Below the pieces are notes generated by a model that did not search any database, was not told the origin of the DNA, and was given only the letters and a program-made list of their open reading frames with translations. Source: Anaerolineales bacterium (GTDB lineage Bacteria > Chloroflexota > Anaerolineae > Anaerolineales > Villigracilaceae). Taken from it: DNA of 64,000 nucleotides. The translations under genes and the position numbers were made by a program. The stretch is taken from positions 1-64,000 of the forward strand of contig JAEURC010000058.1 of assembly GCA_016789025.1 (NCBI GenBank), written 5' to 3'. This document shows, in pieces, positions 4,466-14,274 of this stretch (position 1 is the stretch's first letter; each line of letters begins with the position of its first letter).

Positions 4466-5008
4466 ATGCATCGCCTCTTCCCCGTTTCTGCGAAAGATGA
4501 GATTTTTTCGGAATATAAAAATACCCCGATCGGTTTGCTGTTGGAATATCACAACCTCGGCATGAGGCATGATCCATACACGCAGGCAGAACTGCTGATC
4601 GGCATGTGCATGGATAACCGCAAGCATTTGCACATCCCCGATAATTTTGCGTACATCATCCGCGCAGGCGGGGCGAATTTGCGCTACAGCGAATTCAAAG
4701 TTTCCTATGCCATCGCGGTGGGCGGCGTGAAGTGCATCGCGCTGAGCGGTCACGACCAGTGCGGGATGGTCAACTGGATGTCGCGCAAAGAGGCGTTCAT
4801 TCAGGGTTTGGTCGAGAGGGCGGGATGGGAGCGCGAACTGGCGGAACAACACTTCATGAACTTCACTCCAATGTTCGAGATCGGCAACGAAATTGATTTC
4901 GTGATCAGCGAAGCGCAGCGGTTAAGGCTGCGGTACCCGAAAGTACAAGTTGCTCCGCTGTTATACAAGGTGGAAGATAATTTGTTGTATCAGGTAAAGA
5001 ATACGTAG
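4466..5008 (+). CDS. beta-class carbonic anhydrase-like protein
   Basis: A 180-residue protein with the zinc-site signature of beta carbonic anhydrases: C48-M-D50-N-R52, then H96-D-Q-C99 in SGHDQCGM, with IIRAGGANL between them. The predicted zinc ligands are C48, H96 and C99, with the D50/R52 dyad. It would interconvert CO2 and bicarbonate in the cytosol. It is shorter than E. coli Can, which is about 220 aa. A TAGGAG ribosome binding site precedes the ATG at 4466. It faces the convergent site-2 protease gene with only 4 bases between the two stops. Carbonyl-sulfide or CS2 hydrolases share this fold, so substrate is not proven. Confidence 0.85.
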   Translation: MHRLFPVSAKDEIFSEYKNTPIGLLLEYHNLGMRHDPYTQAELLIGMCMDNRKHLHIPDNFAYIIRAGGANLRYSEFKVSYAIAVGGVKCIALSGHDQCGMVNWMSRKEAFIQGLVERAGWERELAEQHFMNFTPMFEIGNEIDFVISEAQRLRLRYPKVQVAPLLYKVEDNLLYQVKNT

Positions 5009-5012
5009 GAAT

Positions 5013-6098
5013 CTACGCCGCCGCCTTCAACGCTGAGCGGATCATCAAAAATTCGGTGATGTTCTCCGCGGTGATCAAGCCGACGAATTGACCGGCGTGC
5101 ATGACCGGCAGAGTCTTCGCTCCCGTTTCTTGCAGACGGGCGAGGGCTGATTCGACCATGTCATGCGAATCCACGCTGGGAACATCTTTCCGCATCACGC
5201 CAACGACCGGCGCGCCCTGTCCCTGACGCGACAGGGCGGCAATGAACTCGTCGCGTTCGAGAATGCCCATTACGACTCCATTCGCATCTACCACCGGAAA
5301 GTCGTGCTGTGATCCTGCAAGAACCAGCCCCACAACTTGTGCAAGCGTGTCGCGCGGCGAAAGAGACTTGAAATCTGTCAGCATCGCGCGCGTGACGGGG
5401 ATGCCGCTGATCGAGTTTTTCATCATTACCATGCTGGCTTCCTGTGACGCGCCGATCCACACAAAGAAGGCGATGAACAACAACGATTCGTTGCCAAACA
5501 GACCAATAAAGCCGAACAGGAATGCCACGCCTTGACCGATGTTCGCGGCGATTTGCGTGGCGCGCACATAGTCCATACGCATGGCGAGAATGGCGCGCAG
5601 GACGCGTCCGCCGTCCATGGGGAAGGCGGGGATCAAGTTGAAAAGCACGAGCGAGATGTTGACGATCATTAAGCGCATGAGGAAAGAGCCTGACGCGATG
5701 GTCATGCCGGTGAGGAGAGTCAGATTCCCCGTCGTGGCGAGAACCGCGAAGAGTCCAGCGGCGATGAGTACGTTGACAGCAGGTCCCATCAACGCGACCC
5801 ACAACTCCTCGATGGGTTTGTCGGGCATGCGTTCCAAACGCGCCACGCCGCCGATTGGGTACAGGGTGATATCGCGGGTTTTGATGCCGTATTTGCGCGC
5901 GGTGAGCGCGTGACCGTATTCGTGCAAAACGACGCACAGGAAAAGAGCGAGGATGAATAATATGCCGTTGGCGGTTTCTGCAATTGTCCCGTGCTCGAGC
6001 CAGTGACTATACCCCACCCAGCCGATCAGCAAGAGAAAGGTGGCATGGATGTACACATCAATGCCAAGAAAGCGACCTAACTTCCATTGCCATTTCAT
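5013..6098 (-). CDS. site-2 protease (M50 family) with two CBS domains
   Basis: A 361-residue integral membrane metalloprotease. The start at 6098 is preferred over an ATG 21 bases upstream because GGAGAAG sits correctly in front of it. The zinc motif is H59-EYG-H63 in a transmembrane helix, and the third ligand lies in NLIPAFPMDGGR (D162). Residues about 230-355 form a tandem CBS pair (PVTRAMLTDFKSL and VVGVMRKDVPSV). This matches the SpoIVFB/Rip3 type that cleaves substrates within the membrane and is regulated by nucleotide binding to CBS. It is the last gene of a minus-strand run and is convergent with the carbonic anhydrase gene. Its substrate is unknown. Confidence 0.92.
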   Translation of the reverse strand: MKWQWKLGRFLGIDVYIHATFLLLIGWVGYSHWLEHGTIAETANGILFILALFLCVVLHEYGHALTARKYGIKTRDITLYPIGGVARLERMPDKPIEELWVALMGPAVNVLIAAGLFAVLATTGNLTLLTGMTIASGSFLMRLMIVNISLVLFNLIPAFPMDGGRVLRAILAMRMDYVRATQIAANIGQGVAFLFGFIGLFGNESLLFIAFFVWIGASQEASMVMMKNSISGIPVTRAMLTDFKSLSPRDTLAQVVGLVLAGSQHDFPVVDANGVVMGILERDEFIAALSRQGQGAPVVGVMRKDVPSVDSHDMVESALARLQETGAKTLPVMHAGQFVGLITAENITEFLMIRSALKAAA

Positions 6099-6157
6099 TT
6101 TCTCTTCTCCAAATTTCATAAGACCTCACAGGTTTCTGACACCTATGAGGTCTATTT

Positions 6158-7369
6158 TCACTTGATAATCCCCAATTTCTTCCCTGCTTCGCCAATCACG
6201 TCCATCGCGCGTTCGATCTCGCTTGGGTCGTGCGCGGCTGTGACGGTGGCGCGCAGGCGGGCGAGTCCCTCTGGCACGGCGGGCGAAACGACGGGCAGGA
6301 CGAACACGTCGTTGTGTTGCGCTTCGCGCGTCATGGCGAATGCGGCTTCATCCGTGCCGCACAAGACAGGGACGATTGCTGTTTCAGTCAGCATGGTATC
6401 GAAGCCCAGGCTTTTGAGTCCGCCGATGAATTGTTTGGTGTTTTGATTCAAACGTTCGATGCGCCAGGGTTCATCGAGAATTACCTTGAAGGCTTCGTTC
6501 GCGGCGGCGGCTTGCGCGGGCGGCAATGCGGCGGAGAAAATATACGCGCGGCTCGCGTGACGCAAATAGGTGATGATCTCTTTACTTGCGGCAACATATC
6601 CGCCCACCGACGGGATGGTCTTGCTCAATGTGCCCATCTTGATATCGATCCCCTCGTATAGGTCGAAATATTCCTCGATGCCGCGCCCGGTCTTGCCAAG
6701 CACGCCAATGGAATGCGCTTCATCGATCATCAACCACGCGTTGTATTTTTTGCACAGGGCAACCATCGTAGGCAGGTCAATGATGTCGCCGTCCATGCTG
6801 AAGACCGAATCGGCGATGACAAGTTTAGCAACGTCGCCTGGCGCATTTTTCAACAAACCCTCGAGATGTTCCATATCGTTGTGGCGGAAACGACGGAACT
6901 CAGCGCCAGACATCAAACAACCGTCCACGATGGAAGCGTGATTCAATTTATCGGAGAAGACGTAATCGCCGCGTCCCATCAAGGTTGAAACGACAGTTAG
7001 ATTGGTTGCATAGCCCGAAGAATATGTGATCGCGGCTTCGGTGTGTTTGAAGTTCGCAATCGTCTCTTCGAGTTCGTTGTGAATCGTCAACGTGCCAGCC
7101 AGCGTGCGAACGCCGTTCGTACCCGTGCCAAACTTGTCCACGGCGGCTTTGGCGGCGGCGTTAATGCGCGGGTGGTTGAGCAAGCCCAAGTAGCCGTACG
7201 AAGCGTACATGCCCATCTCGCGTCCGCGCACGCGCACTTTCGAGTCGTTAAGCAGTTCCTCCACAGGCTGGTTATAAAAATACAAATCGTGTGCTTTGAG
7301 CATGGCAACGCGGTCGTTCATCGCCTTGATACGGCGGGTAACGGAATCGTCGGTGTTATGCAAATCCAT
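6158..7369 (-). CDS. alpha-oxoamine synthase, PLP-dependent (Kbl/BioF/serine palmitoyltransferase family)
   Basis: A 403-residue fold-type I PLP enzyme. Landmarks are H144 in LNHASIVDG, D216-E-A-H in MIDEAHSIG, and the PLP lysine K250 in GTLSKTIPSVGG. The family condenses an amino acid with an acyl-CoA, giving 2-amino-3-ketobutyrate, 8-amino-7-oxononanoate, aminolevulinate or ketosphinganine. The N-terminal 35 residues and the motif SYGYLGLLNHP resemble the serine palmitoyltransferase/Kbl branch, but no threonine dehydrogenase or biotin gene adjoins it, so the exact reaction is open. A purine-rich GGAGG-like stretch lies upstream of the ATG. It follows the Gfo/Idh gene by 50 bp and may be cotranscribed. 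Confidence 0.88.
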   Translation of the reverse strand: MDLHNTDDSVTRRIKAMNDRVAMLKAHDLYFYNQPVEELLNDSKVRVRGREMGMYASYGYLGLLNHPRINAAAKAAVDKFGTGTNGVRTLAGTLTIHNELEETIANFKHTEAAITYSSGYATNLTVVSTLMGRGDYVFSDKLNHASIVDGCLMSGAEFRRFRHNDMEHLEGLLKNAPGDVAKLVIADSVFSMDGDIIDLPTMVALCKKYNAWLMIDEAHSIGVLGKTGRGIEEYFDLYEGIDIKMGTLSKTIPSVGGYVAASKEIITYLRHASRAYIFSAALPPAQAAAANEAFKVILDEPWRIERLNQNTKQFIGGLKSLGFDTMLTETAIVPVLCGTDEAAFAMTREAQHNDVFVLPVVSPAVPEGLARLRATVTAAHDPSEIERAMDVIGEAGKKLGIIK

Positions 7370-7419
7370 ATAAAGCCTCCGAAAAAGAATGTGGCAAGTG
7401 TACCAGACTGTAAAGGGAT

Positions 7420-8415
7420 TTAGAAATTTTCCCGTGACAGACGAACAGGCATTGCCGCGCGGGTCGATTCGAGCAAAGCGCGGATCACGCGCACATTGGC
7501 GCGCGAATCGTCGAGAGAAATGCGCGGCTCGCGCCCCAACAGAACCGCGTCCGCCATATCTTCCACCTCGCCAATGTACAATTCGCCGCCACGCACGCGG
7601 ATCGATTCGGTTTTTTCGTTCCGCGTGAGGTAAATCGTTTCATCGACGCCGGGCCTGAACGGATGCGGAATGTTCAATGCGCCGTCGCTGCCGACGATTT
7701 CCATAAACGCATGAAACGGGATGACAAAACTGGAATCGAACTGCGCATGGATGTCTCCCTCGAAACGCATCTGACCGACGAACGTCTCGTCGATTCCTGT
7801 CTCGCCCGCGACGTGCCAGCCAAATACTTCGAACGGCTCCAAGCCTGTGGCCATTCTTGCGTAACTGATAGGGTAACAGCCCACATCCCAAATGCTTCCG
7901 CCGCCCCACTCGGGATTCAAACGCACATCGCCCTCGCGGGTCAGCACAAAACTGAACGAACCGCGAATCATTTTCAACGCGCCGAGTGAACCGCTACGCA
8001 CAATTTCCTGCACTTTCAGCGTTTGCGGATGGTGGCGATACATAAAAGCCTCAGAAACGATTCGCCCATATTTGTGCGCGGCATGTTTGATAGCGTCCAC
8101 TTCCTCGACGGATAACGCGAGCGGCTTTTCGCACAGCACGTGCTTGCCCGCCTCCACCGCTTTGATCGTCCACTCGGCGTGGAGGTGATTCGGCAACGGG
8201 TTGTAGATCACATCGATCTCAGAGTCTGCGAGCAACGCCTCGTACGAGCCATATGCGCGCGGAATCTTTTTTGCTTTGGCGTAAGCGTCGGCATTCTCTT
8301 GCGAACGAGAAGCCACAGCCAACAAATGATTCCGCTTTGAAACTTGCAGCGGCGGAATCAACGCGCGGGTGATCCGTGCTGTGGAAATTAATCCCCAGTT
8401 GAGAGTTTTGGTCAT
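7420..8415 (-). CDS. Gfo/Idh/MocA-family NAD(P)-dependent oxidoreductase
   Basis: A 331-residue protein with an N-terminal Rossmann fold starting WGLISTARI and the family motif CEKPLALS (E96-K97-P98), in which the Lys helps catalysis. The C-terminal half has the alpha/beta dimerisation and substrate domain (DVGCYPISYARMATG is the family's conserved helix with catalytic His replaced or shifted). Members oxidise or epimerise sugars, inositol or biliverdin-like substrates; specificity cannot be read from the sequence. It begins 12 bases after the stop of the thioredoxin-like gene, so the two are probably on one transcript. Confidence 0.88.
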   Translation of the reverse strand: MTKTLNWGLISTARITRALIPPLQVSKRNHLLAVASRSQENADAYAKAKKIPRAYGSYEALLADSEIDVIYNPLPNHLHAEWTIKAVEAGKHVLCEKPLALSVEEVDAIKHAAHKYGRIVSEAFMYRHHPQTLKVQEIVRSGSLGALKMIRGSFSFVLTREGDVRLNPEWGGGSIWDVGCYPISYARMATGLEPFEVFGWHVAGETGIDETFVGQMRFEGDIHAQFDSSFVIPFHAFMEIVGSDGALNIPHPFRPGVDETIYLTRNEKTESIRVRGGELYIGEVEDMADAVLLGREPRISLDDSRANVRVIRALLESTRAAMPVRLSRENF

Positions 8416-8427
8416 TTCTTCGGCGCC

Positions 8428-8850
8428 TCAGCCTTTGCAAAGCGGATCTAACACGGCGGCAAATTCCTCTGCTTCCACCGTACCAAACCAGCGATAAAGA
8501 ACATTGTTCTGCGAATCGAGAAGCACAAACTCGGGCGTGGCAAAAGGAGATAACAGGTCGTGCCATGCTGTCCGCTCATGGAAGTTAACCCGCTCCAGTT
8601 GGATGCATCGGTTGTACAAATTCTTGAGCCCATCCACGATGGGCTTCATTGCGCGACATTCCATTCAAGTGCCAGAAAAGAACTCGACGAAGGTGAGGTC
8701 GTTTGACTGGATGCGCGGGGCGGATGTGACGGCAATCGTCGGCGTAGGGACAGGATTCGTGGCGCTCGGAAGTAGAGTTGCCACATCTGTGCGCGCACAG
8801 GAGGAAAGGAGAGTCGAAATAAAAAAGAAGATTCTCAATCGACGAGTCAT
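8428..8850 (-). CDS. thioredoxin-like lipoprotein with in-frame TGA (candidate selenoprotein)
   Basis: Read through one in-frame TGA at 8665-8667, the frame encodes 140 residues. The first part is a lipoprotein signal (FFFISTLLSSC, lipid Cys 18), then a Pro/Thr-rich linker, then a thioredoxin fold with FVEFFSGT-U62-MEC65-RAMKP. The TGA takes the place of the first Cys of the CxxC redox motif, giving UxxC. The downstream half keeps the cis-Pro motif (ATPEFVLLD) and ends normally. A stable hairpin follows the TGA at a distance suited to bacterial selenocysteine insertion. The alternative is a simple Cys-to-stop mutation in a pseudogene, but both halves are otherwise intact. It lies between sulP and a Gfo/Idh gene and would act outside the membrane in thiol exchange. 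Confidence 0.75.
8627..8645 (-). promoter_or_regulatory. SECIS-like hairpin after in-frame TGA
   Basis: In mRNA sense the arms AGCCCAUC and GAUGGGCU pair perfectly (8 bp) around a GUG loop. The stem begins 19 nt, and the loop 27 nt, after the TGA at 8665-8667. Bacterial SECIS elements lie in this window and carry a G near the start of the apical loop. The three-base loop is at the small end of what is accepted. Confidence 0.6.
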
Positions 8851-8856
8851 AACTGG

Positions 8857-8862
8857 ATTATA
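8857..8862 (-). promoter_or_regulatory. TATAAT box 6 nt before the thioredoxin-like gene
   Basis: A perfect -10 hexamer on the minus strand ends six bases before the ATG at 8850, so transcription would begin at or beside the ATG and the mRNA would be leaderless. No good ribosome binding site is seen. No clear -35 at the usual spacing. Confidence 0.55.
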
Positions 8863-8885
8863 TCGGATTGCCAGCACAAGCACTG

Positions 8886-10547
8886 TCAGCCGCCAGAGCA
8901 ATATCTACACCCCCGCCTCTCTGCCTCGACGATCGCCTGGTCGCTCGACCAGAAGAAGTTTTTCTCCCCGATGGTATCCACGAGTCCTCCGCGCTTCATC
9001 ATGTTGTAGGCGTTATCGTGGACACCGGCAAACATCAACGCGCCGCCTTTTTGATGCAAGCGTTCATGCAGACGATGGATCGCTTCGATGCCCGCCGTGT
9101 CGATCAGCGAGACGCCGCGCATCGAGAGGATCAACGCGTGCGTGTCTTTCAAATTTTGAAACGCTTCGTTGAATTGACCCGTCGCCGCGAAAAACAATGG
9201 ACCTGTGATAAACGCCACGCGCACATGCCGACATTTGCCAGCCGTTTCGATCCCTTTTTGTTTGAGCCGCTTAACGTCCACTTCTTGAACTTCGATGTCA
9301 ATGCTGGCGATCTTATTGAGGAAGACCGCGCCCGCGAGGAAAGCGCCGATAAGAATGGCTTGCGTCAAGTCGAGGACGACGGTGGCGAGCATCGTCACCG
9401 TGAACGCGATCATGTCGGTCTTGAAGCGTTTGCCGAAGATGAATTTGATCGCCTCCCACTCGTTCATGCGGATGGCAGTGATCATCAACACGCCCGCCAA
9501 AGCCGCCAAGGGGATGCGGCTCATCAAAGGCGCGAGCAAAAACATGGAGAGCAACAACCCAATCGCGTGGACGATACTGACGAGGCGCGTCTGTCCGCCC
9601 GATTTGATTCCCACGCTGGAGCGGGCAATGGCCGCCGTCGCAGGGACTCCGCCGAAGAACGGGATGAGCATGTTGCCCACGCCTTGCGCGATCAATTCTT
9701 GATTCGCCTGCAAGCGAACGCCCGTCATGTTCGAGCCGACTGCGCCGCACAACAACGACTCCACTGCGCCAAGCGCGGTGATTGTGAAGGTCGGCGCGAT
9801 AAATTCGGAGAGATGAGTCCAGGGGATGTTGGAGAGTGAAAGCCGAGATTGGAGAATCAGAGAATTGGGAATCTCGCCGATGGTTTGGGCGGACCAGTTC
9901 AACGTCGAGGAAAGAAGCGTGGCGACGATGATGCCGAGGAGCGAGGCAGGGAATCGCGCCGTCCACTTTTTGGGCATGAAGAGCATGGTGGCAACGACGA
10001 CGAGTCCGAGGAGTAGAGATTGGAGATCGGGGGCGAATCCGCCTTGAAAATATCCGATGAGTTTTTGCGCGGCGGTGTCGGTGGCGGGAGTTTTGACGCC
10101 GAGGAAGTTGTCAATTTGACCAATGAAAATTATGAGCGCGATGCCCGAGGTGAAACCGTTGATCACGGCGGAGGGGATGAAAGCGATGAAGCGTCCGAGG
10201 CGCAACAGACCGATGAGAAACAGAAGGATGCCTGAAAGCAAACCCGCAACCCAGATGCCCTCGAGTCCGTAGCGTTGCACGAGGACGATCAGCACGGCGG
10301 ACATCGCGCCTGTGGGTCCGCTGATCTGGAACGGCGCGCCCGTGAGCGCTCCCATGATAAAGCCTGCGAGGATGGCGGTGACCAATCCCGCGGCGGCGGT
10401 CGCGCCCGAGGCAACCCCGAACGCGAGCGCGAGCGGAAGCGCAACCGCGGCAACGGTCAGACCTGCGAGCAAGTCCTGTTGAAATTTGGCGAGCGAATAG
10501 CCAGCGAACTCGTCCTTGTACAGGCGAGCGAGACTTCTTCTTGGCAT
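8886..10547 (-). CDS. SulP-family anion permease with STAS domain
   Basis: A 553-residue SLC26/SulP transporter. The start at 10547 (MPRRSLARLYK) follows a GGAGAA site; the frame is open further upstream but lacks a site. About 12-14 membrane segments occupy residues 20-400, with the family signatures GLTVAAVALPLALAFG and FQISGPTGAMSAVL. Residues about 420-540 form a cytoplasmic STAS domain (LILSMRGVSLIDTAGIEAI). Substrates in this family include sulfate, bicarbonate and dicarboxylates. A short segment around LILQSRLSLSN is encoded by a dispersed repeat. The thioredoxin-like gene starts 35 bases beyond its stop. Confidence 0.92.
   Translation of the reverse strand: MPRRSLARLYKDEFAGYSLAKFQQDLLAGLTVAAVALPLALAFGVASGATAAAGLVTAILAGFIMGALTGAPFQISGPTGAMSAVLIVLVQRYGLEGIWVAGLLSGILLFLIGLLRLGRFIAFIPSAVINGFTSGIALIIFIGQIDNFLGVKTPATDTAAQKLIGYFQGGFAPDLQSLLLGLVVVATMLFMPKKWTARFPASLLGIIVATLLSSTLNWSAQTIGEIPNSLILQSRLSLSNIPWTHLSEFIAPTFTITALGAVESLLCGAVGSNMTGVRLQANQELIAQGVGNMLIPFFGGVPATAAIARSSVGIKSGGQTRLVSIVHAIGLLLSMFLLAPLMSRIPLAALAGVLMITAIRMNEWEAIKFIFGKRFKTDMIAFTVTMLATVVLDLTQAILIGAFLAGAVFLNKIASIDIEVQEVDVKRLKQKGIETAGKCRHVRVAFITGPLFFAATGQFNEAFQNLKDTHALILSMRGVSLIDTAGIEAIHRLHERLHQKGGALMFAGVHDNAYNMMKRGGLVDTIGEKNFFWSSDQAIVEAERRGCRYCSGG
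9838..9880. repeat. AGAGATTGGAGA-type dispersed repeat inside sulP
   Basis: The plus strand here reads as degenerate AGATTGGAGAATCAGAGAAT units, the same family as the intergenic tract at 4284-4330. On the coding strand it contributes residues around LILQSRLSLSN, at a loop between membrane helices. It keeps the frame open. Confidence 0.45.
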
Positions 10548-10644
10548 AGATTGTTCTCCGAAAATGTAATTTCGCAAAGGCTCACTGCTCCCCCAAGGCG
10601 TCCTTTGCTTCAATGGCGGGATTGTATCACGAGAAATTTTGCAA

Positions 10645-14274
<3,630 letters not shown>

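Follow-up and report, generated by a model that had tools for sequence, protein, structure and literature searches.

Does the TGA codon that interrupts a short reading frame in the genome of an Anaerolineales bacterium mark the remains of a broken gene, or does it encode selenocysteine (Sec), and what would the product of such a gene do? The codon is found at positions 8665-8667 on the minus strand of the window, which is the whole 64-kb stretch of DNA that was analysed. A preliminary description had placed a gene at 8428-8850 without naming its strand; the coordinates were correct, and the gene runs on the minus strand from an ATG at 8850-8848 to a stop codon, likewise TGA, at 8430-8428. The frame is indeed continuous across the first TGA, as had been claimed there: from 8850 to 8431 it is open save for 8667-8665, and it terminates at the second TGA. 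It encodes a thioredoxin-like protein of 140 residues, predicted to be membrane-anchored (MTRRLRIFFFISTLLSSCARTD...NDLTFVEFFSGT-U62-MEC65-RAMKPIVDG...ATP106EFVLLD...LDPLC138KG), in which the TGA at residue 62, the predicted Sec, replaces the first Cys of the thioredoxin CxxC motif (FFSGT-U-MEC-RAMKP) and so occupies the first position of a UxxC centre (U-M-E-C65), with the motif as it had been described (FSGT-TGA-MEC-RAMKP). A mechanical listing of open reading frames gave the gene as two pieces of 78 residues each (8901-8665 and 8664-8428). A standard gene caller would therefore split or lose it, which had also been foreseen.

A search of the rest of the genome for the Sec machinery had been proposed, and the system proved complete. 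The draft assembly (3.41 Mb, 103 contigs, 96% complete) encodes a tRNA-Sec (Infernal 66.6 bits against a cut-off of 47; ARAGORN tRNA-SeC with anticodon TCA), SelA (542.7 bits), SelB (364.2 bits) and SelD (353.4 bits). The match to SelB spans positions 2-580 of 581, so that its C-terminal part is present. The gene for SelD contains one in-frame TGA of its own and is itself a predicted selenoprotein gene (locus L018, G000:C54:17608-18540; STCAG-U-ASK); this TGA is followed by a hairpin, GACGCAG-GUU-CUGCGUC, which served as an internal positive control.

Related genomes were searched for the same gene family, and 71 of 101 encoded a homologue, the best match carrying the TGA in 57. This points to a wide use of Sec, in probably extracytoplasmic thioredoxin-like proteins, within a largely uncultured order known from sludge, groundwater and sediment. 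The contigs with homologues were assigned nearly throughout to Anaerolineales, Anaerolineae or Chloroflexi. Of 30 loci from the first round, 29 had TGA in precisely this column and the remaining one (L037) encoded Cys. Among 78 loci from named genomes (contigs from one genome per species in which the motif was recognised, L059 being counted as Cys) there were 70 with TGA and eight with Cys. SelB was found in 52 of the 57 genomes with a TGA-carrying best match, and a TGA best match was associated with SelB (Fisher p = 0.001, uncorrected for kinship between genomes). Four of the five others had a strong tRNA-Sec match (67-76 bits), and SelB was therefore probably missed there owing to incomplete assemblies. 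The fifth, G062, had no SelB and a tRNA match of just 48.8 bits and 87 nt, of a type also found in the Cys-only genome G081 (48.4 bits); it may lack the Sec system, and its tRNA match was not counted. Matches to RF01852 just over the cut-off occurred in G081 and G062, both without SelB, and control genomes where the search for SelB gave no match also had hits above the cut-off, which suggests that the cut-off of 47 bits lets in some other long-arm tRNA genes.

Genes of the window type, in which two further cysteines discussed below are conserved, occurred in seven of the family's 152 genomes. These belong to two genera, and the gene always has one TGA. The six genomes other than that of the window are independent assemblies with orthologues carrying the same TGA, and in three newly found genes it again lay at the same UxxC position. 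Close relatives thus have TGA and not TGC or TGT, and they keep the hairpin described below; both points had been raised in the preliminary description as a check. Purifying selection acts on the codons downstream of the TGA. In the three closest pairs, those among the window gene and the two orthologues nearest to it, dN/dS after the TGA was 0.087/0.333 (0.26), 0.064/0.482 (0.13) and 0.078/0.422 (0.18), and constraint before the TGA was weaker in the same pairs.

Bacterial SECIS elements (bSECIS) have been delimited as hairpins of 4-16 bp located 16-37 nt from the UGA, with a loop of 3-9 nt that has a G in its first two places (PMC13188914). The hairpin in the window, AGCCCAUC-GUG-GAUGGGCU (8627-8645, minus strand), lies within all of these limits. 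Its 8-bp stem pairs 8645-8638 with 8634-8627 around a GUG loop at 8637-8635, the stem starting exactly 19 nt and the loop 27 nt after the TGA, so that sequence and fold agree with the earlier account of it. We screened the 64-kb window for bSECIS-like hairpins with a strict threshold of at least 7 bp and 4 G-C pairs. Such a hairpin follows 2-3% of all TGA triplets by chance; among the 47 TGA codons in the window that are preceded by 60 or more open codons and followed by 70 or more, it followed the residue-62 TGA only. The local stem has a folding energy of -13.3 kcal/mol, which was matched in 0.14% of 5000 synonymous-codon shuffles in which the protein was held fixed and codons were redrawn by local usage. 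When the 54-nt stretch was shuffled by dinucleotides, the fold was unexceptional (z = -1.2). Folding of a single sequence would not by itself be decisive given this weak score, and we therefore relied on the synonymous-codon shuffles and on contrasts between Sec and Cys forms. An Rfam scan of the locus gave no match to SECIS or any other family.

The alignment of relatives showed that the hairpin is present in the TGA forms and degraded in the Cys forms, as expected of a role in Sec insertion. RNAalifold recovered the helix independently. All six core pairs were kept in 61 of 72 distinct TGA rows and none of these rows had fewer than four, whereas the eight Cys rows had one to four of the six. 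A Gly codon was GGG in 67 of the 72 Sec rows and in none of the eight Cys rows, and a Pro codon was always CCC or CCT in TGA rows, while CCG and CCA also occur in Cys rows. These contrasts draw on just eight Cys rows, most of which have Thr in place of Met, Ile or Val, so that part of the difference stems from an amino acid change. Covariation was seen at a synonymous His codon, where CAC or CAT tracks GTC or ATN: the His/Asp codon ended in C (CAC or GAC) in 14 rows, the same number in which GTC replaced ATG or ATC, and we read this agreement as compensatory change at a synonymous site. Four pairs of the hairpin had changed on both sides. The observed number of paired cells, number of changed cells and covariation score were reached in none of 500 shuffles, and pair counts exceeded those in slid registers. 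In the three distant members of the window type the stem is only 5 bp long with a loop of 5 nt, and for one of them another weak fold was marginally preferred. The compact consensus (CCCAU-CGUGR-AUGGG / CCCAUG-GUU-CAUGGG) might be used to find more genes of this kind.

Two readings without Sec have to be weighed against these results. That a TGC or TGT Cys codon, one base away, turned into TGA by nonsense mutation or sequencing error in a draft of 103 contigs, leaving a dead or mis-assembled gene, is effectively excluded by the same TGA in independent assemblies of the six other subfamily genomes and in most of the wider family, by the purifying selection past it and by the TGA-form-specific hairpin that follows, and we give this reading next to no credence. 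Some lineages reassign TGA, and the codon stands at the position of a Cys; a TGA read by other means, be it stop read-through or genome-wide reassignment to Trp or Cys, is on the whole very improbable here. TGA serves as an ordinary stop in this genome, including at the gene's own end (8430-8428), where it lacks a hairpin; the genome has the full Sec machinery, and the hairpin is lost from those family members that have Cys. We rejected both forms of this reading on these grounds. Taken together, the reading frame, the Sec machinery, the conserved TGA, the selection downstream of it and the covariation of the hairpin leave us with little doubt that 8428-8850 is a selenoprotein gene.

What kind of protein the gene encodes could be narrowed down by its fold. 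The domain (about residues 46-139; 8434-8715, minus strand) matched the Pfam thioredoxin model PF00085 with 27.9 bits against a cut-off of 23.5, with a strand at residues 52-58, the active-site helix at 63-78 and the cis-Pro at P106 (TPEF), which was invariant in an alignment of 24 rows. An AlphaFold2 model has its elements in thioredoxin order, with block means of 90-95 for residues 51-90; its mean pLDDT is 73.6 and the linker lies below 50, so that it is confident only for the domain. Foldseek returned thioredoxins first (probability 1.00, TM-scores of 0.5-0.57 normalised by query and up to 0.79 by target), the best match being 1v98 from Thermus thermophilus (E 3.9e-7, TM 0.79 by target), and a profile search of PDB sequences found thioredoxins as well. 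Fold, profile, UxxC and cis-Pro thus agree with membership in the thioredoxin superfamily (PF00085). The model for thioredoxin proper (TIGR01068) gave 26.2 bits against a cut-off of 96.8, and the protein has a signal or lipobox N-terminus; with a score so far below the cut-off we regard it as a selenoprotein of the thioredoxin superfamily and not as a thioredoxin proper.

In the predicted N-terminal signal segment (8797-8850, minus strand) there is a lipobox-like motif, LSS-C18, assigned by its pattern only, which would serve as a lipoprotein anchor; the preliminary description had named both a lipobox and the cis-Pro motif. A lipobox-like motif was found in 93 of the 103 family members with enough of the N-terminus, and three distant proteins of the window type lack the lipobox Cys, though their N-terminal segment is still hydrophobic. 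All seven window-type proteins have two further cysteines, C82 and C138, which the genome's second Sec copy lacks; they probably form a structural disulfide. Most likely the product is a thioredoxin-like oxidoreductase with a UxxC centre, anchored to the membrane and located outside the cytoplasm. The earlier proposal of a Sec-containing envelope redox protein fits a lipobox or transmembrane anchor joined to a thioredoxin fold, from which location and activity would follow.

The gene follows a co-directional gene for a SulP/STAS transporter, and genes for a Gfo/Idh/MocA oxidoreductase, a class I/II aminotransferase-fold enzyme and an M50/CBS membrane protease lie downstream. Two other species (L049 and L050) have the same gene order, which is largely lost in G017. 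The conserved block from the SulP/STAS transporter to the M50/CBS protease, together with an ORF at 4466-5008 that looks carbonic anhydrase-like by eye and had no Pfam match at 1e-5, takes up window positions 4466-10658. Directly upstream of the ATG, the block GGCAATCCGATATAATCC (8855-8872, minus strand) is the same in three species, those of the window gene and of its two nearest relatives, although the adjoining bases differ. A sigma-70 consensus scan found no full site. The block contains TATAAT about 6 nt before the ATG, and a position so near the start codon suggests a leaderless mRNA, of which this motif would be a possible promoter.

We propose the following mode of action. SelB bound to the hairpin after the UGA would deliver Sec-tRNA-Sec, and the ribosome would insert Sec at residue 62 and go on to the second UGA. 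The product would be exported and anchored outside the cytoplasmic membrane by a lipid on Cys18, presenting a thioredoxin fold with a Sec62-Met-Glu-Cys65 redox centre. In our judgement of direction, it would most likely be a thiol-disulfide (or selenenylsulfide) reductase whose substrates lie outside the cytoplasm, with Sec62 attacking as the nucleophile and Cys65 resolving. No redox partner gene is adjacent, and the gene order points to none. Candidates for the electron donor or acceptor in this genome are its one DsbD_TM/CcdA-type protein and its one VKOR. Re-reduction via the CcdA/DsbD-type membrane protein is probable, and coupling to VKOR in the oxidising direction would be less likely. 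A true selenoprotein might instead be an extracytoplasmic oxidant, a disulfide isomerase or a selenium- or metal-handling protein, and VKOR as a driver of oxidative folding, the preceding SulP-family anion transporter and the departure of UMEC from the thioredoxin CGPC would all suit such roles. We consider this rather unlikely, since selenenylsulfides usually have a low redox potential, which together with the CcdA-type carrier favours a reductase, and the SulP neighbour is kept in close relatives only.

Anaerolineales have a large family of thioredoxin-like proteins that use Sec, of which the window protein represents one branch. The genome of the window encodes a second Sec copy (G000:C41:32964-33299; locus L133, neighbourhood L159), a canonical lipoprotein with the centre FFRFT-U-GTCRAMAPMVHGLEA, whose own family is widespread in the order; it lies near a ferritin-like gene, named by eye. 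Both proteins are of predicted lipoprotein type and share architecture, TGA column and hairpin position. They are 31% identical in the matched part, and the second copy differs in its UGTC centre, its GUU loop and the lack of C82 and C138. A third, more distant Sec group (EFQSPY-U-xxC; L146, L154 and L039 with Sec, L143 as a Cys relative) belongs to the same family and order and was marked as a clade in a tree. In that tree at least three changes between Sec and Cys were forced, and six were counted by parsimony. Such clear Sec/Cys pairs within one family offer a test of why Sec is kept or lost. The window clade stands apart on a very long branch whose placement 95 columns do not resolve, and we therefore make no claim on its origin. 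We think it possible, if somewhat doubtful, that the window-type genes (U-[MKR]-[ED]-C with the extra Cys pair) form a separate, undescribed family of envelope selenoproteins with a task of its own in Anaerolineales. If so, their task might for example be the reduction, with the help of the SulP transporter next to them, of one particular lipoprotein, metal-oxyanion or selenium substrate, and they would act alongside the second Sec thioredoxin, which occurs widely in the order.

None of the scanned NCBIfam selenoprotein models (SaoT, HUIPC, UXX-star and others) is dedicated to the window protein, the sole match being a marginal one to TsoB in one of 24 members (E 5.8e-4), and standard callers would split the genes of many relatives likewise. 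We found no description of Sec thioredoxins from Anaerolineales or Chloroflexota in the open-access papers searched, which does not prove novelty. Thiol:disulfide interchange selenoproteins (PF13098, UxxC) and TlpA/ResA-like UGC selenoproteins have been described (PMC13188914), and like these the window protein combines a thioredoxin-fold thiol-disulfide centre with Sec in a kind of protein that is usually extracytoplasmic. It differs from the former in reaching only 20.8 bits against the PF13098 cut-off of 27, and DsbE/ResA models matched members of the wider family only, with none matching the window protein at E 0.001. Its closest known counterpart is the Sec-containing thioredoxin (Trx, PF00085, UxxC), an experimentally verified kind of selenoprotein (PMC13188914); earlier predictions of it came from Geobacter, Treponema denticola, Carboxydothermus and others (PMC1794560). 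The two share the thioredoxin fold, Sec as the first residue of UxxC, a bSECIS downstream and the existence of Cys homologues. Unlike Sec-containing Trx, the window protein is predicted to be membrane-anchored and extracytoplasmic, with a signal segment and a low-complexity linker, and it has U-M-E-C in place of a CGPC-like centre as well as the additional C82 and C138. The window-type proteins belong to the known Sec-thioredoxin kind and perhaps represent a distinct subfamily within it, marked by the extra pair of cysteines.
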